DNA of 64,000 nt from Paenimyroides ummariense (GTDB lineage: Bacteria; Bacteroidota; Bacteroidia; Flavobacteriales; Flavobacteriaceae). The stretch lies in NCBI RefSeq assembly GCF_900115115.1, contig NZ_FOVI01000010.1, forward strand, positions 62,001 to 126,000. Direction: 5' to 3'. This document shows positions 18,768-56,043 of the stretch, one piece after another. A model generated the notes under the pieces. The model was given only the letters and a program-made list of their open reading frames with translations, was not told where the DNA came from and did not search any database. Made by a program: the position numbers and the translations under genes. Every line of letters begins with the position of its first letter. The stretch's first letter is position 1.

Positions 18768-19910
18768 ATGAATTTTGAATACAACGAAACACAAGCAATG
18801 ATTGCACAGTCAATCAGAGAGTTTGCTGAAAAAGAAATCAGACCATATATAATGGAGTGGGATGAAGCGCAAATTTTTCCTGTAGAATTATTTAAAAAAT
18901 TAGGAGAAATGGGCTTTATGGGAGTTTTAGTTCCTGAAGAATTAGGCGGATCTGGCTTAGGTTATCACGAATACATTACTGTTGTAGAAGAGATTTCTAA
19001 AGTAGATTCTTCAATTGGTTTGTCGGTTGCGGCTCACAATTCATTATGTACAAATCATATTTTAACATTTGCAAACGACGAGCAAAAGAAAAAATGGATT
19101 CCTAAATTAGCAACAGGTGAGTGGATTGGTGCTTGGGGATTAACAGAGCACAACACCGGATCTGATGCCGGCGGTATGGCAACAACTGCTGTTAAAGACG
19201 GTAACGACTGGATCATCAACGGAGCTAAAAACTTTATCACGCACGCGATTTCTGGCGATGTTGCTGTTGTAATTGTTCGTACAGGCGAAAAAGGTGATTC
19301 TCGTGGTATGACTGCTTTTGTAATTGAAAAAGGAACTCCAGGTTTTTCATCAGGTAAAAAAGAAAATAAATTAGGAATGCGCGCTTCTGAAACAGCAGAA
19401 TTAATTTTTGATAACTGTCGTGTTTCTGACGCAAACCGTTTAGGTGAAGTTGGTGAAGGATTTATCCAGGCTATGAAAATTTTAGATGGTGGTCGTATCT
19501 CAATCGGTGCTTTATCTTTAGGAATTGCAAAAGGTGCATATGAAGCAGCGTTGAAATACTCAAAAGAACGTGTGCAGTTTGGTAAACCAATCTCAGAATT
19601 CCAGGCAATTGGTTTTAAATTGGCAGATATGGCAACCGAGATTGAATGTTCGGAATTATTATTACACAAAGCAGCATACTTAAAAAACAACCATAAACCA
19701 ATGACAACAGCAGGTGCAATGGCAAAAATGTATGCATCTGAAGTTTGTGTGAAAGTTTCTACCGAAGCAATCCAGATCCACGGTGGTTACGGTTATACAA
19801 AAGATTTCCCGGTAGAGAAATTCTTCCGCGATTCTAAATTATGTACCATTGGCGAAGGAACAACCGAAATTCAAAAATTAGTTATATCTAGAAATCTTTT
19901 AAAAGACTAA
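18768..19910 (+). CDS. acyl-CoA dehydrogenase
   Basis: 380 residues, normal for the short/medium-chain class. It oxidises acyl-CoA to trans-2-enoyl-CoA with FAD, passing electrons to ETF. The FAD/substrate motif is WGLTEHNTGSD (127-137 or so). The C-terminal helix bundle carries the base Glu363 in CTIGEGTTEIQ, preceded by IQIHGGYGYTKDFPVEKFFRD. The chain-length or branched-chain specificity cannot be read from sequence. It is transcribed from its own promoter and ends at the terminator that is also found, duplicated, after the neighbouring TA cassette. Confidence 0.94.
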   Translation: MNFEYNETQAMIAQSIREFAEKEIRPYIMEWDEAQIFPVELFKKLGEMGFMGVLVPEELGGSGLGYHEYITVVEEISKVDSSIGLSVAAHNSLCTNHILTFANDEQKKKWIPKLATGEWIGAWGLTEHNTGSDAGGMATTAVKDGNDWIINGAKNFITHAISGDVAVVIVRTGEKGDSRGMTAFVIEKGTPGFSSGKKENKLGMRASETAELIFDNCRVSDANRLGEVGEGFIQAMKILDGGRISIGALSLGIAKGAYEAALKYSKERVQFGKPISEFQAIGFKLADMATEIECSELLLHKAAYLKNNHKPMTTAGAMAKMYASEVCVKVSTEAIQIHGGYGYTKDFPVEKFFRDSKLCTIGEGTTEIQKLVISRNLLKD

Positions 19911-19936
19911 TTCTTTTAGAAAATAGAGAATAGATA

Positions 19937-19976
19937 AAAGAGGAAAGACTGTAGTGGTTTTTCCTTTTTTTGTTTT
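19937..19976 (+). repeat. direct repeat copy A (terminator) flanking TA cassette 1
   Basis: A 40-bp sequence beginning AAAGAGGAAAGACTGTA and ending CCTTTTTTTGTTTT. It recurs at 20600-20638 with one substitution and one missing T. It contains the terminator of the acyl-CoA dehydrogenase gene, starting 26 nt after its stop codon. Confidence 0.85.
19941..19971 (+). terminator. terminator after acyl-CoA dehydrogenase
   Basis: Stem AGGAAAGAC (19941-19949) / GTTTTTCCT (19957-19965) with one G-U pair and a 7-nt loop, then a T run. Confidence 0.8.
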
Positions 19977-20022
19977 TATAATTTTGTAAAATGTCAGTTT
20001 TATAATAGTAAAAAGTTTTTTG

Positions 20023-20030
20023 TAAATTTG
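20023..20030 (+). promoter_or_regulatory. -7 box of TA cassette 1
   Basis: TAAATTTG, 21 nt before the antitoxin ATG. A second TAATTTTG box lies at 19979-19986, directly after the terminator. Confidence 0.5.
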
Positions 20031-20051
20031 AATGATGTAAAAGATTGAAAG

Positions 20052-20288
20052 ATGGATATTCAAACAAGAAAAATAGAGTTTATACAAGAATTTTTAAAAC
20101 TTCAAAACGAAGAATTAATTTCTCGTCTTGAAAATCTTTTGCGTGCAGGTAAATCAAAGAATGATGATTTTAAGCAAATGACAATCGATGAATTTAATAG
20201 TCGTATTGATCAATCTATGAACGATTCAAAAAACGACAGATTAACAAATTCTGATGATTTAATTGCTGAAATTGAAAAATGGAGCTAA
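20052..20288 (+). CDS. putative type II antitoxin
   Basis: 78 residues, acidic, helical. It has the usual layout of Bacteroidota antitoxins paired with RelE/ParE toxins: an N-terminal helical part (MDIQTRKIEFIQEFLKLQ), then a MTIDEFNSRIDQS stretch and a C-terminal toxin-binding tail (DDLIAEIEKW). Its last 10 nt overlap the toxin gene, which implies coupled translation. By family knowledge the antitoxin neutralises the toxin and represses the operon with it. I see no classical DNA-binding fold, so the assignment rests largely on the partner. The second cassette at 54482 has an antitoxin of similar layout. Confidence 0.75.
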   Translation: MDIQTRKIEFIQEFLKLQNEELISRLENLLRAGKSKNDDFKQMTIDEFNSRIDQSMNDSKNDRLTNSDDLIAEIEKWS

Positions 20289-20596
20289 AGGTTTTTTGGA
20301 CAGATTTTGCAAAAAGTGAGCTTAAAAATATTTTCGATTATCATAAAGAAAAAGTAAGCGTTAAAATAGCTCAGCAGATTGTAGAACAAATTGTTCTTAC
20401 GGCAAATGAATTAAAAAGTTTTCCTGAAATTGGCGCGGTTGAAGATTTTTTGGAAAGCAGATCCGAAAACTTCAGGTATATTATAAGTACAAACTATAAA
20501 ATTATCTATTGGATCAATAAAGCTAAAGAGCGAATTGAAATTGTAGATGTATTTGATACAAGGCAAAATCCAATAAAAATTTCAAGGAAAAAATAA
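20279..20596 (+). CDS. RelE/ParE family toxin
   Basis: 105 residues, basic. It follows the RelE/ParE pattern: VFWTDFAKSELKNIFDYHKE, a central helix pair, LKSFPEIGAVEDF, then the strand block RYIISTNYKIIYWI and the terminal VVDVFDTRQNP-like end (IVDVFDTRQNPIKI). RelE members cut mRNA on the ribosome; ParE members poison gyrase. Short sequence similarity alone does not say which applies here. It overlaps the antitoxin gene by 10 nt. Four nt after its stop codon begins the second copy of the upstream terminator. Confidence 0.88.
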   Translation: MELKVFWTDFAKSELKNIFDYHKEKVSVKIAQQIVEQIVLTANELKSFPEIGAVEDFLESRSENFRYIISTNYKIIYWINKAKERIEIVDVFDTRQNPIKISRKK

Positions 20597-20599
20597 TTC

Positions 20600-20638
20600 A
20601 AAGAGGAAAGACTGTAATGGTTTTCCTTTTTTTGTTTT
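20600..20638 (+). repeat. direct repeat copy B (terminator) flanking TA cassette 1
   Basis: 39-bp near-copy of 19937-19976 (one G to A change, one T fewer). It acts as the terminator of the TA operon; the missing T weakens the hairpin by one pair. The distance between copies is 663 bp. Confidence 0.85.
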
Positions 20639-20660
20639 AAAGATGTTTTGATGAGTTTTG

Positions 20661-20668
20661 TATCTTTG
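20661..20668 (+). promoter_or_regulatory. -7 box of the small lipoprotein gene
   Basis: TATCTTTG, 18 nt before ATG 20687. It falls inside the longer ORF opening at 20648, so the later start is preferred. Confidence 0.5.
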
Positions 20669-20686
20669 AGTATTTATCTGTATTTT

Positions 20687-21103
20687 ATGTTTAAAAGGTT
20701 GTACTTGTTTTGCGTTATTGTATTTTGTTTGTATTTAGTTAGTTGCAAATTAAATAAAGAGCTACTTGTTTTAAAAGTTGAGCATACTTATGATGATTTA
20801 GATGGAAAGAAATTGTTTTATAATGATTTAGAAATAGGTAAGTATAATGAAATTAAAGGAAGGAAGTTTGGTGAGTTGGTTATTGATGATGATAAGATCT
20901 TAATTCCTAATAATTCAAAATTAACGTTATCAAATAAGTTGAATGATAATTTAGTAGTTGAGATTTTAAAAGGAGTCAATGAAATAAATTTTAAACATGG
21001 TGATACAATATTGTGGCGTAAAAGTCACGAAGAAATAGATCTTGAAAAAACAATATTAGTAGGTGATTTTATGTTTATTCATAATAAAGATTCTTTGAAA
21101 TAA
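20687..21103 (+). CDS. small lipoprotein, possibly MCE/MlaD-like
   Basis: 138 residues from MFKRLYLFCVIVFCLYLVSC, a signal peptide with lipobox LVSC. The start was set after the -7 box at 20661. The mature part (DGKKLFYNDLEIGKYNEIKG, then ILIPNNSKLTLSNKL and VVEILKGVNEI) loosely follows the order of an MCE domain (gain of a G-v-.-IGkV loop, an iP-s strand and a v-I-G end), as in MlaD-type lipid transporters. This resemblance is weak and by eye only; otherwise the protein is unknown. It is the gene next to TA cassette 1 on the downstream side. Confidence 0.65.
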   Translation: MFKRLYLFCVIVFCLYLVSCKLNKELLVLKVEHTYDDLDGKKLFYNDLEIGKYNEIKGRKFGELVIDDDKILIPNNSKLTLSNKLNDNLVVEILKGVNEINFKHGDTILWRKSHEEIDLEKTILVGDFMFIHNKDSLK

Positions 21104-21179
21104 ATTATTTATGGTAGTGAATAACTCTTTTTTCTATAATCTTTTCTCTTTTTTTCTAATGTAATTCAAAAATTATTTC

Positions 21180-21187
21180 TACTTTTG
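21180..21187 (+). promoter_or_regulatory. -7 box of rpsU
   Basis: TACTTTTG (TANNTTTG), giving a very short 5' leader that consists almost only of the SD region. Confidence 0.6.
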
Positions 21188-21198
21188 CACCCATAATG

Positions 21199-21208
21199 AA
21201 AGGAGGTG
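21199..21208 (+). promoter_or_regulatory. perfect Shine-Dalgarno sequence of rpsU
   Basis: AAAGGAGGTG is complementary over 10 nt to the usual 3' end of 16S rRNA, 8 nt before the ATG. No other gene in the window has anything similar. In Flavobacteriia the anti-SD of 16S rRNA is known to be hidden by ribosomal proteins bS21, bS18 and bS6, and rpsU (encoding bS21) keeps a strong SD that allows autoregulation. Confidence 0.9.
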
Positions 21209-21216
21209 TATAAATT

Positions 21217-52693: not shown

Positions 52694-54397
52694 ATGGCTG
52701 AAATTATTACAATGCCTCGTTTAAGCGATACCATGACAGAAGGTACCGTGGCATCTTGGTTGAAAAAAGTTGGAGATAAAATTTCTGAAGGTGATATTTT
52801 AGCAGAGATTGAAACTGATAAAGCTACCATGGAGTTTGAATCATTTCACTCGGGAACACTTTTGTATATTGGTGTTCAGGAAGGCGAAACAGCAAATGTT
52901 GACAGTGTTTTGGCAATTATCGGGAAAGAAGGTGAAGATTATAAGTCTTTATTAGAAGGATCTTCTTCTGAAGGGAAAAAAAATGAACCAGCCGATACTA
53001 AAGAAGAAAAGCAAACAGAATCTGATTCAAAAGCTGATACATCTGATAAAAAAGAAGTAAAAGAAGAAGAGCAATCAGAAGAAACCGCTTCGGAAATTCC
53101 TGACAATGTTAGCGTTGTAACTATGCCTCGTTTAAGTGATACGATGACGGAAGGAACGGTTGCTACATGGTTGAAAAAAGTTGGTGATGAAGTAAAAGAG
53201 GGGGATATTTTAGCTGAAATTGAGACAGATAAAGCTACAATGGAGTTCGAATCTTTTTACGCAGGAACATTGTTGCACATTGGTATTAAAGAAGGTGAAT
53301 CGGCACCGGTTGATAGTGTTTTAGCTATTGTTGGTCCTGCAGGAACCGATGTTTCTGGTATTTTGTCTGGCGGATCTAAACCAAAAGCAAAAACCGAAGC
53401 TAAAAAAGAAAAATCATCAGAAGATAAATCAGATAAAAAAGAATCAAACACAGAGAAAGAAACTACTGCAAAAACAGAAAGTTCTTCATCTACAAATGAT
53501 TCAAACAGAGTTTTTGCTTCGCCCTTGGCTAAAAAAATTGCTCAAGATAAAGGCATAAATCTTTCTGATGTAAAAGGATCGGGTGAAAACGGACGCATCG
53601 TGAAAAACGATGTAGAAAACTTTACTCCATCTGCTAAAACTGTATCAACAGAAACCAAGTCAGAAGAGAAATCTACAACGACAAGTTCAACTCTAAAAGC
53701 AGTTCCAACGGGAGAAGTTTATGCAGAAGAAGTTAAAAACTCGCAAATGCGTAAAACCATTGCGCGTCGTTTGGCTGAATCTAAATTTACAGCGCCACAT
53801 TATTATTTAACGATCGAAGTTAATATGGATAATGCAATGACATCTCGTAAATTGATCAATTCATTGCCAGATACCAAAGTTTCGTTTAACGATATGGTTG
53901 TGAAAGCGTGTGCAATGGCGTTGAAAAAACATCCACAAGTAAATTCACAATGGACAGAAGCTGCTACAATTATTAATCACCATGTAAATGTTGGTGTAGC
54001 TGTTGCTGTTGAAGACGGATTGGTTGTGCCGGTTGTTAACCATACAGATTTGTTGAGTTTAACGCAGATTGGCAGTTCAATTAAAGAATTGGCAGGCAAA
54101 GCACGTAGCAAAAAACTACAACCTAAAGAAATGGAAGGTTCTACTTTTACGGTTTCTAATTTAGGAATGTTTGGAATCGAAGAATTTACATCGATCATCA
54201 ACCAGCCAAATTCTGCGATTTTATCGGTAGGTGCAATTATTGAAAAACCAGTTGTTAAAAACGGACAAATTGTGGTTGGAAATACCATGAAAGTTACCTT
54301 GGCATGCGACCACAGAACGGTTGACGGAGCTACAGGTGCAGAATTTTTACAAACGTTGAAACATTTTATAGAAAATCCGGTTACAATGCTAGCTTAA
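52694..54397 (+). CDS. pyruvate dehydrogenase E2, dihydrolipoamide acetyltransferase
   Basis: 567 residues. Two lipoyl domains (1-80 and 140-215), each with the lipoyl-lysine motif ETDKATMEFES (Lys43 and Lys180), joined by charged Lys/Glu/Ser linkers. Then the E1/E3-binding domain (about 274-310, FASPLAKKIAQDKGINL) and the acyltransferase domain with the catalytic DHRTVDG (His540, Asp544). It transfers acetyl from lipoamide to CoA and forms the core of the complex. LipB, encoded at 4656, would supply the octanoyl groups. Same operon as pdhA. The terminator starts within 25 nt of the stop codon. Confidence 0.96.
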   Translation: MAEIITMPRLSDTMTEGTVASWLKKVGDKISEGDILAEIETDKATMEFESFHSGTLLYIGVQEGETANVDSVLAIIGKEGEDYKSLLEGSSSEGKKNEPADTKEEKQTESDSKADTSDKKEVKEEEQSEETASEIPDNVSVVTMPRLSDTMTEGTVATWLKKVGDEVKEGDILAEIETDKATMEFESFYAGTLLHIGIKEGESAPVDSVLAIVGPAGTDVSGILSGGSKPKAKTEAKKEKSSEDKSDKKESNTEKETTAKTESSSSTNDSNRVFASPLAKKIAQDKGINLSDVKGSGENGRIVKNDVENFTPSAKTVSTETKSEEKSTTTSSTLKAVPTGEVYAEEVKNSQMRKTIARRLAESKFTAPHYYLTIEVNMDNAMTSRKLINSLPDTKVSFNDMVVKACAMALKKHPQVNSQWTEAATIINHHVNVGVAVAVEDGLVVPVVNHTDLLSLTQIGSSIKELAGKARSKKLQPKEMEGSTFTVSNLGMFGIEEFTSIINQPNSAILSVGAIIEKPVVKNGQIVVGNTMKVTLACDHRTVDGATGAEFLQTLKHFIENPVTMLA

Positions 54398-54418
54398 TCC
54401 ATAGAATAGTATTTATAT

Positions 54419-54453
54419 AAACCCGTTTTGATTTTTCAAAACGGGTTTTTTTG
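54419..54453 (+). terminator. terminator of the pdhA-E2 operon
   Basis: 12-bp stem AAACCCGTTTTG / CAAAACGGGTTT, loop ATTTTT, T run. Confidence 0.93.
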
Positions 54454-54461
54454 TATATTTG
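54427..54461 (+). promoter_or_regulatory. promoter of TA cassette 2
   Basis: TTTG in the hairpin (54427-54430), 23-bp spacer, TATATTTG (54454-54461) directly after the T run. Transcription start near 54468, 14 nt before the antitoxin ATG. Confidence 0.55.
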
Positions 54462-54481
54462 TTATAGTAAAAGTTATATTT

Positions 54482-54709
54482 ATGGACACAATTGTTTTAA
54501 AAAATAGAATACATTCTTTTGTAGAAAAAGCAGATGAACGAATTTTGTCTATTGTAAATAGTGTCTTTGAAAACTATTACAATAAAGACATTGTTGCTTT
54601 TTATCCTGATGGAAAACCAATGACAAGAGAAGAATATAAAGAGGCTCTTTTAAATGCTGAAAAACAGATTGATGAAGGTGATTTTCTTGATGTTGAAGAA
54701 TTGGAATAA
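54482..54709 (+). CDS. putative type II antitoxin
   Basis: 75 residues from MDTIVLKNRIHSFVEKADER. An earlier in-frame start at 54428 would lie inside the terminator and upstream of the promoter. Acidic, with an N-terminal helical region, a DGKPMTREEYKEALLNAEKQ stretch and an acidic tail (DEGDFLDVEELE). This is the same layout as the antitoxin at 20052 (central [KQ]xMTxxEx), though the two share little sequence. Assignment rests on layout and on the toxin gene 3 nt downstream. Confidence 0.75.
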   Translation: MDTIVLKNRIHSFVEKADERILSIVNSVFENYYNKDIVAFYPDGKPMTREEYKEALLNAEKQIDEGDFLDVEELE

Positions 54710-54712
54710 AAA

Positions 54713-54991
54713 ATGACAGTAAAAGTTAAGCGAATTGTTTGGGTAAGACAAGCAAGAGAAAATCTTTCTGAAATTTTGGATTATCGATATTCTAGCATAC
54801 CTACAGCTTATGAAATAGTTAGAAAAGAAATTATAAATGCCTCTAAGAGTATTGTTTTTTCTGAACAATATCAGCAAGATGAAATTTTTTCTGAATATAG
54901 AAGAATAATCGTAAGAGATTATAAAATTTTGTACAAAGAAAAGGAAGGAATTGTTTACATACTTAATATTGTTTGTACGAGAGCTGAATAA
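54713..54991 (+). CDS. RelE/ParE family toxin
   Basis: 92 residues, basic. Pattern IVWVRQARENLSEILDYRYS, then IFSEYRRIIVRDYKILYKEK and a terminal strand VYILNIVCTR, typical of RelE/ParE toxins. Start ATG 3 nt after the antitoxin stop codon. The target (mRNA or gyrase) is not predictable. It differs clearly from the toxin at 20279, so the two cassettes are not recent copies of each other. Confidence 0.85.
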   Translation: MTVKVKRIVWVRQARENLSEILDYRYSSIPTAYEIVRKEIINASKSIVFSEQYQQDEIFSEYRRIIVRDYKILYKEKEGIVYILNIVCTRAE

Positions 54992-55039
54992 TAAATGCAT
55001 AAAATCTACAAAACATTCGTCAAAGAATAGTATTTATAT

Positions 55040-55074
55040 AAACCCGTTTTGATTTTTCAGAACGGGTTTTTTTG
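55040..55074 (+). terminator. terminator of TA cassette 2
   Basis: AAACCCGTTTTG (55040-55051) / CAGAACGGGTTT (55058-55069) with one G-U pair, T run. Confidence 0.92.
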
Positions 55075-55082
55075 TATTTTTG
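55048..55082 (+). promoter_or_regulatory. promoter of the M28 peptidase gene
   Basis: TTTG (55048-55051), 23-bp spacer, TATTTTTG (55075-55082). Confidence 0.55.
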
Positions 55083-55098
55083 TTTAAAACGTAAAAAA

Positions 55099-56043
55099 AT
55101 GAAAAAAATTCTTCTGTTTGCAGCTTTATCGTTGTCGTTAGTTGCTTGTAAATCTAATAAAAGTGCAGATGTTTCTAACTATCAGGTAAAAGAAGCTGAT
55201 GTAAGTTCAACTTTGAAATATTTAGCTTCTGATGAATTAGCAGGGCGTGATCCTGGCACCGAAGGAATTGAAAAAGCAGCAAATTATCTGGAAGAAATTC
55301 TAAAAAAATCTAACGTTAAACCGTATTTTTCTACTTATAAAGATACACTTTCTAACTATGACAATTCATTTAATGTGGTTGGATATATCGAAGGAATAGA
55401 TCCGAAACTGAAAAGCGAATTTGTAATTTTAGGTGCACACTATGATCATATCGGAATTACAGAAAAAGGTTTTGACGGCGATTATATCAACAACGGAGCA
55501 AACGATAATGCATCGGGAACAACGGTTTTGGCTGAAGTTGCAAAGTATTTAGGTAAAACAAAAAACAGCAAACGCAGCGTGTTAATTGTTTTCTTTTCTG
55601 CCGAAGAAAAAGGTTTGTTAGGATCGAAACATTTGGCTAAAAAACTAAAACAGCAAAATATAAATGTGTACAGCATGTTGAATTTTGAGATGGTTGGTGT
55701 ACCAATGAATTATGATTTTAAATTGTTTTTAACAGGATACACTAAATCAAACATGGCTGCGAAACTAAACGAATATGCGGGCAGTACGCTAATAGGAATG
55801 TCTGAAGGAGCTGAAAAATACAATTTGTTTGCAGCGTCAGATAATTATCCGTTTTACGAAGAATTTAAAATTCCGGCTCATACCGTTTCAGCGTTCGATT
55901 TTTCAAACTTTGATTTTTACCATCATCCAAAAGATGAATTTCAGATTATGGATACTAAATTCATGACCACCATTGCAAAAGAAATGCTTCCGGTAGTATC
56001 AAAAATGATTAATGCAGAAACCAAAGAAATAAAAATGAATTAG
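55099..56043 (+). CDS. M28 family metallopeptidase, lipoprotein
   Basis: 314 residues from MKKILLFAALSLSLVACKS; the in-frame start at 55072 precedes the -7 box and is rejected. Lipobox LVAC with Cys17. The di-zinc M28 ligands are His114 (LGAHYDHIG, with Asp116), Asp136 (NNGANDNASG), Glu169/Glu170 (FFSAEEKG), a Glu197 where many members have Asp (NFEMVG), and a C-terminal His in FYHHPKDEF. A PA-type insert is absent. Probable periplasmic or surface aminopeptidase acting on peptides. Confidence 0.92.
   Translation: MKKILLFAALSLSLVACKSNKSADVSNYQVKEADVSSTLKYLASDELAGRDPGTEGIEKAANYLEEILKKSNVKPYFSTYKDTLSNYDNSFNVVGYIEGIDPKLKSEFVILGAHYDHIGITEKGFDGDYINNGANDNASGTTVLAEVAKYLGKTKNSKRSVLIVFFSAEEKGLLGSKHLAKKLKQQNINVYSMLNFEMVGVPMNYDFKLFLTGYTKSNMAAKLNEYAGSTLIGMSEGAEKYNLFAASDNYPFYEEFKIPAHTVSAFDFSNFDFYHHPKDEFQIMDTKFMTTIAKEMLPVVSKMINAETKEIKMN

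Follow-up and report, generated by a model that had tools for sequence, protein, structure and literature searches.

A toxin-antitoxin pair between duplicated copies of a terminator-promoter at the pdh-E2/M28 junction of Paenimyroides ummariense

The window analysed here, a 64,000-nt stretch of the Paenimyroides ummariense genome (G000; relatives are labelled G plus a number and their loci L plus a number), carries a small toxin-antitoxin (TA) pair between the pdh E2 gene and an M28 peptidase gene, bracketed by two near-identical copies of a single junction signal. We hold with good confidence that a minimal TA cassette was inserted in the pdh-E2/M28 junction and that about 57 bp of the target, a fused terminator-promoter, became duplicated in the process. 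The cassette itself would begin at about its own -7 box and end a few tens of bases downstream of the toxin stop codon. Evidence for this reading comes from relatives whose junction is empty, from the layout of the repeat, and from further sites at which genes are bracketed in the same way.

The duplicated junction signal and the genes it encloses

The initial annotation had described a TA cassette flanked by two near-identical copies of a terminator-promoter, and 59 of 61 bases are indeed identical between 54403-54463 and 55024-55084. This direct repeat extends to 64 nt (54400-54463 and 55021-55084) at 95% identity, and copy A, searched against all 75 contigs of the genome (3.49 Mb), matches at two places, both at the E2-M28 junction. 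The core hairpin pattern, with at most 3 mismatches allowed, was matched twice in the 64-kb window and in none of 100 shuffles. When the window was scanned for direct repeats of 28 nt or more with a minimum identity of 85% and a spacing of 200-2500, two pairs emerged, each flanking a TA pair, namely the E2-M28 cassette and a second locus, cassette 1, described below. The features of the E2-M28 junction are as follows.

52694..54397, + strand: pdh E2 (dihydrolipoamide acetyltransferase), intact, upstream neighbour (TIGR01349, 559.9 bits, cut-off 445)
54400..54463, + strand: copy A; target-derived part probably 54400-54456 (putative boundary)
54419..54448, + strand: copy A hairpin with a 13-pair stem and a 4-nt loop, then a T run; predicted intrinsic terminator of E2
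54454..54461, + strand: TATATTTG, which would be the -7 box of the TA promoter (28 nt upstream of the antitoxin ATG) and is probably cassette-borne
54482..54709, + strand: antitoxin-like gene for a 75-aa protein that reaches the cut-off of no curated family
54713..54991, + strand: gene for a ParE/RelE-like toxin of 92 aa (PF05016, 23.7 bits, cut-off 23, E 7.6e-5)
55021..55084, + strand: copy B; predicted TA terminator (3' of the toxin gene) and native M28 promoter
55040..55069, + strand: copy B hairpin of 13 pairs including one G-U (RNAfold)
55075..55082, + strand: TATTTTTG, which would be the -7 box for M28, 24 nt upstream of the M28 ATG
55099..56043, + strand: M28 peptidase gene, intact, downstream neighbour (PF04389, 127.8 bits)

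In both copies the hairpin is followed by the T run and then by the -7 box, TATATTTG (54454-54461) in copy A and TATTTTTG (55075-55082) in copy B. RNAfold predicts hairpins of -17.6 and -17.7 kcal/mol, equalled in none of 200 shuffles; the hairpin and T run proposed at first thus stand, with a stem of 13 pairs in place of the 12 counted then. A stable hairpin followed by a U run is what an intrinsic terminator is predicted to look like, and judged from such predicted signals the duplication would have left E2 with a terminator and M28 with a promoter, as had been suggested. The TTTG in the 5' arm of the copy A hairpin could be a -33 element, going by the consensus. A -33 element inside the hairpin would make terminator and promoter one unit, so that the whole copy would be needed to serve both neighbours.

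The calls of E2, an antitoxin-like ORF, a ParE-like toxin and M28 are upheld by family matches and ORFs. The insert amounts to about 560 bp and contains the two small genes only; inverted repeats of at least 12 nt around it are hairpins only. Like type II ParDE toxins, the toxin matches PF05016, and a profile built from six toxins matched a ParE chain in the PDB (E 0.0022); a ParE-superfamily toxin encoded 3' of a small antitoxin gene is the arrangement expected of a type II ParE module, which this locus is therefore predicted to be. Unlike in type II ParDE, the antitoxin matches curated families below their cut-offs alone, and no PDB entry with E < 0.1. A profile of six related antitoxins finds matches in 229 of the 398 genomes of the genus. 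A phage or plasmid origin was rejected, the toxin having no match at E 1e-5 in collections of phages and plasmids.

Empty sites and the history of the cassette

The end of E2 and copy A, used as a DNA query, matched 385 of 398 genomes, and 13 junctions were aligned, the 12 nearest from this search and one from a MAG. Ten of the 13 hold a single terminator-promoter unit and no TA pair, among them Paenimyroides viscosum and the Myroides MAG (L071), which shares 97% identity with the window over the final 300 nt of E2. The other three, in the window genome, G212 and G022, are filled and read copy A-TA-copy B. From the ten single-copy empty junctions and the three filled ones it follows that the TA pair is an insertion that duplicated its target, and the empty single-copy site on which the initial annotation had staked its reading is thereby found. 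An assembly error was rejected, as three assemblies carry the filled site (that of G212 consisting of 3 contigs, that of G022 of one).

E2 and M28 are not adjacent everywhere, and many of 30 loci have no E2 within 1.5 kb. Where the two genes do meet, the single unit is recognisable in relatives at about 77% E2 identity (G345, G315), which suggests that the native junction signal is under selection and bears out the earlier view of the fused terminator-promoter as native to the junction. As a separate observation, the locus of G348 (L073) is 96% identical to the window in its E2 protein and only 64% in M28, pointing to a mosaic breakpoint near the terminator junction in that genome.

The -7 box of copy A probably arrived with the cassette. 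Among 78 TA loci of the same family with clear ORF pairs, TANNTTTG occurs in the 60 nt upstream of the antitoxin ATG in 72 and lies 22-31 nt before it in 71, as against 5.8 loci on average, and 13 at most, when the upstream regions were shuffled. On this ground the cassette itself probably supplied the TATATTTG of copy A, and the duplicated target proper would be about 57 nt long. In all three filled genomes copy A reads TATATTTG and copy B reads TATTTTTG, and TATTTTTG also marks the empty sites of MAG L071, G348, G300, G027, G315, G244 and G345; copy B resembles the single copy of empty relatives both in this box and at a G in the hairpin. Cassette and target duplication most likely meet in the T run and GTAT that they share. 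The earlier proposal that the TA pair uses the -7 box of copy A therefore holds for the position of the box within that copy; its inheritance with the duplication is improbable, given the 71 of 78 loci with a TANNTTTG of their own.

The two copies differ at two positions, an A/T difference in the -7 box and an A versus G in the hairpin. The former is common to all three filled genomes and so probably dates from the insertion. The hairpin A is private to copy A of the window genome; G stands in the other five filled-site copies and at the empty sites of the MAG, G348, G300, G027 and G315. In G212, as in G022, copy A is identical to copy B at 63 of 64 positions, and in G022 both carry two private derived changes (AATTGCATTT for AATAGTATTT) that are absent from the other alignable junctions. 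Since the G022 copies share these changes, the likeness of the copies says nothing about selection on each; it can come from concerted change by exchange between the copies or from a separate insertion per lineage. The claim that both differences preserve function, and that both copies are hence selected, finds no support in a pattern in which one difference is filled-wide, the other private and the G022 copies alter in concert. Selection on both copies was accordingly rejected as the cause of their likeness.

The toxin looks inactive in G022 and G212, to judge from its reading frame, unless another start codon serves. In G022 the ParE-like gene is interrupted by about 9 kb (G022:C1, about 1547776-1556741; L067, L068) with type I restriction-modification genes (HsdM, HsdS and HsdR domains), and in G212 its start codon is AGG; two of the three filled lineages would thus have lost the toxin. 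A scan of G022 for repeats 8-10 kb apart recovered just the cassette's own two copies, and no long target duplication is thus evident for the insertion of the restriction-modification genes.

How the cassette came to be in three genomes is a question of transfer or of vertical descent with loss, and the synonymous differences per site bear on it. For the window genome and G212 these are 0.201 in the cassette against 0.351 in E2, 0.457 in an acyl-CoA dehydrogenase (ACAD) gene some 35 kb from the cassette and 0.486 in M28; for the window genome and G022 they are 0.212 against 0.414, 0.442 and 0.499, respectively (Fisher p from 3e-3 to 9e-7 for the cassette versus its neighbours in these two pairs). 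Between G212 and G022 the cassette value is 0.058, against 0.212 in E2 (p 1e-4), 0.188 in ACAD (p 2e-3) and 0.130 in M28, the last difference not being significant (p 0.07). The cassette has thus accumulated 27-57% of the synonymous divergence of E2, M28 and ACAD, which suggests horizontal spread, although constraint on short AT-rich genes might account for part of the reduction. The flanks follow another course: the last 170-nt bin of the window's E2 is 97% identical to the MAG, 96% to G348, 91% to G212 and 89% to G022, and the first 500 nt of M28 are 95.8% identical to the MAG and 83% to G212 (over E2 alone, the MAG is 93.8% identical). An E2 end and an M28 start of the genome's own lineage around a less diverged cassette favour arrival from a relative, by exchange close to the repeats. 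A spread of the cassette between related species by exchange near the repeats is, on these comparisons, likely.

One old insertion with target duplication in the ancestor of the clade, passed on vertically and lost precisely by recombination between the repeats, is a serious contender against which we lean somewhat; it competes with horizontal spread and leaves the duplication itself untouched. It would account for the identical cassette boundaries in the window genome, G212 and G022 and for the precise single-copy sites in the MAG, G348, G300 and G027. It also agrees with a tree of concatenated E2 and ACAD, in which the window genome groups with G348 and G027 (0.979) and then with G300, while G212 and G022 form a separate pair further out. 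Yet several separate losses are required, and the cassette's synonymous divergence, at 42-57% of that of its neighbours in the comparisons of the window genome with G212 and G022, is lower than such a history would lead one to expect.

Further bracketed sites and their frequency

Brackets of differing sequence are present at four further sites, cassette 1 and three in other genomes, and relatives devoid of the TA pair exist for each. The repeats measure 33 to 76 nt and are unrelated in sequence between sites. Among 30 toxin loci, four at unrelated places (L050, L053, L061 and L063) have bracketing repeats of other sequence. Cassette 1, in the window, consists of the following features.

19937..19970, + strand: left copy, in the terminator region of the ACAD gene (repeat scan; ACAD named from ORF reading)
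20052..20288, + strand: antitoxin of the same family as the E2-M28 antitoxin (profile)
20279..20596, + strand: ParE-like toxin
20600..20633, + strand: right copy, 31/34 to the left copy (repeat scan)

At this site G315 has one terminator copy directly 5' of rpsU, and G345 a diverged terminator before rpsU; G022 keeps a decayed antitoxin together with a second repeat copy, and G300, G027, G348, G244 and G212 have other genes after a single copy. The segment from ACAD to rpsU (19910-21216 of the window) is also a hotspot in its own right, in which relatives hold differing genes after a lone ACAD terminator. A second copy that had been suspected in the G348 insert was not detected by the repeat scan.

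A second target is the 3' end of gene D, a 71-aa gene provisionally labelled DUF2007 that matches no Pfam family at E 0.001. Copies of this gene end bracket the TA pair in G107 (69/72) and G040 (74/76). In G048, which has no TA pair, gene D is directly followed by the downstream gene of G107 (88.7%) and then by the transporter gene of G040 (98.6%, protein), and in G013 and G179, likewise TA-less, gene D is directly followed by the G040-type transporter gene (80% and 94%). Gene D adjoins 24 of 110 antitoxin loci, 22 of which begin 29-51 nt past the end of the match. When 19 gene-D loci were compared, a second copy was present in L132 and L133, decayed in L134 and absent from the other 16. The third target is the 5' end of an O-methyltransferase gene, filled in G216 with a repeat of 61/70 whose upstream copy is decayed; G109, G029, G045 and G148 lack the TA pair there, and G007 has it with no detectable second copy.

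The remaining target is the junction between OmpA and AKR genes. Of the 110 antitoxin loci, 21 lie beside AKR, and 8 of these 21 are bracketed. In 10 of 12 further, hand-picked genomes OmpA is next to AKR with no antitoxin match between them, and in the other two no OmpA was found at the AKR site. The terminator that is present twice in G056 (L144) occurs once in G150. One terminator type recurs among the genomes with this junction, so that some of its brackets may be two like terminators.

To estimate how often TA loci are bracketed, 110 antitoxin loci were collected and a bracket was defined as a repeat of at least 30 nt at no less than 85% identity. Five array-like loci (L217, L223, L228, L229 and L230) and one of low complexity (L239) were dropped beforehand, and a further nine were excluded because the TA pair lay within 300 nt of the locus end; TA ends are approximate in 27 of the 110. 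Brackets were found at 13 of the remaining 95 loci and at 0 of 585 control intervals shifted by 900 to 2400 nt. The 13 include four profile seeds picked after their repeats had been seen (L132, L133, L135 and L144), the G212 copy of the E2-M28 site (L156), and eight loci, the seed L144 among them, at the OmpA-AKR site with its common terminator type. Flank-to-flank alignments scored at least 28 in 19 of 99 loci compared with 115 of 5000 mismatched pairs; with the AKR site left out, the figures are 6 of 79 and 46 of 5000. That 82 of the 95 loci show no bracket at this threshold implies that the duplication is often lost or is not obligatory. The best PF05016 matches of the genus (30 loci) were left unused, as they often lie in arrays with attC-like repeats. 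Such arrays, with ParE or related TA genes and long imperfect attC-like repeats recognised by eye, were seen at L107, L109, L112, L122, L125 and L228-L230, and these TA loci are apparently integron cassettes.

Genes other than TA pairs are bracketed in the same manner. A scan over 761 kb of G212 gave 138 repeat pairs, most of them arrays, tRNA genes, intragenic repeats or tandem paralogues, and the genes of 10 pairs were inspected. At G212:C1 1503709-1504312 (L278), a 125-aa ORF without a Pfam family lies between 33-nt terminator copies (32/33), and G348 has one copy at this site. At G212:C1 1608838-1610501 (L284), a FUR-family regulator and a pyridine-nucleotide oxidoreductase lie between two copies of a gene end that match at 41 of 41 nt; in G022 this stretch is present once and the insert is absent, and with a neighbouring gene that is 98% identical the insertion in G212 looks recent. 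These inserts argue that the mechanism is not specific to TA pairs, and insertion with long target duplication appears to be a way in which this clade gains genes in general.

Insertion mechanism, alternatives and relation to known systems

An insert without recognisable ends or enzyme makes it probable that a short donor fragment entered by a staggered-break or template-switch (illegitimate) event. Because both the upstream stop signal and the downstream start signal would be copied in such an event, it may have done little harm and hence been kept. Later conversion between the repeats would keep the copies alike, and a crossover between them would remove the TA pair, leaving the empty site again, a loss that addiction to the TA pair would counteract.

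A mobile role for the repeat itself seems unlikely. In one version, the duplicated terminator would serve as an attachment site without an integrase, and an excised circle of one terminator and the TA pair would integrate by homology in a relative; if this doubtful scheme were true, the TA pair would be a site-specific mobile element driven by host recombination and kept by addiction. A shade less probable still is conventional site-specific or transposon mobility, in which a known recombinase acting in trans would use the repeats as attachment sites or have left them as its target-site duplication. The reuse of a few sites would fit such an enzyme, with gene D beside 24 and AKR beside 21 of the 110 antitoxin loci, but the repeats are unrelated between sites and vary from 33 to 76 nt, the inverted repeats of at least 12 nt around the cassette are the hairpins, the insert of about 560 bp encodes the two small genes only, and the toxin is without a match at E 1e-5 in the phage and plasmid collections.

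An integron gene cassette is highly improbable, even though other ParE genes of the genus do lie in arrays with attC-like long imperfect repeats; it was rejected because the E2-M28 repeat is a terminator, occurs twice in the whole genome and is not accompanied by an array of attC sites. Equally hard to credit are two independent like terminators, alike by chance or as members of a dispersed family, for although one terminator type recurs around the AKR-site TA loci, the E2-M28 copies agree over 64 nt at 95%, hairpin flanks included, with two copies in the genome and a single one in empty relatives, and chance likeness was rejected on the absence of the core pattern from the 100 shuffles.

The preferred reading, insertion with long target duplication, has a precedent in restriction-modification systems, an insertion of this kind having reportedly been described by Nobusato et al. 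in 2000. It is known for these systems from several studies (PMC1643837, PMC3031569, PMC3874152), and the duplications are given as "in the order of 100 bp" (PMC3874152). In the excerpts of these papers available to us, the likeness extends to a unit absent in a relative, a long direct repeat of variable length, no obvious enzyme and addictive cargo. The E2-M28 case shows the same hallmarks, with an empty single-copy site in 10 of 13 junctions, a target-derived repeat of 57-64 nt that differs between sites, and neither a recombinase nor transposon ends (inverted repeats of at least 12 nt) belonging to the insert. It differs from the excerpted cases in that a type II TA pair (and, in G212, other genes as well) forms the cargo, the hosts are flavobacteria, and the repeats, at 33-76 nt, are gene ends with a terminator or a promoter.

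The nearest TA parallel comes from Microcystis aeruginosa PCC 7806, in which a ParE/ParD-like module beside MaOC1 lies between two 152-bp direct repeats (PMC7935541). Going by the excerpted text, this locus resembles ours in placing a ParE-type pair between direct repeats that contain an inverted repeat, the first of which starts 14 bp after the upstream stop codon. It differs in that the repeats are identical, 152 bp long, and lie 147 bp upstream of the antitoxin and 120 bp downstream of the toxin; an empty site is not reported in the same excerpts, which present the repeats without reference to long target duplication (PMC7935541). Among the literature matches listed, themselves seen as excerpts, there is no report of TA cassettes inserted with long target duplication, and such cassettes look like a new variant.

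The finding suggests how selfish TA pairs that carry no mobility gene can get into chromosomes, by a form of insertion put forward before for restriction-modification systems, which are likewise addictive. For one TA family, the insertion product, the empty site and several targets are set out here at the level of single bases, which makes it testable whether addiction protects repeat-bracketed inserts from deletion. More broadly, such insertion would provide a route by which genes are added between two transcription units while the stop signal of the upstream unit and the start signal of the downstream unit are both preserved.
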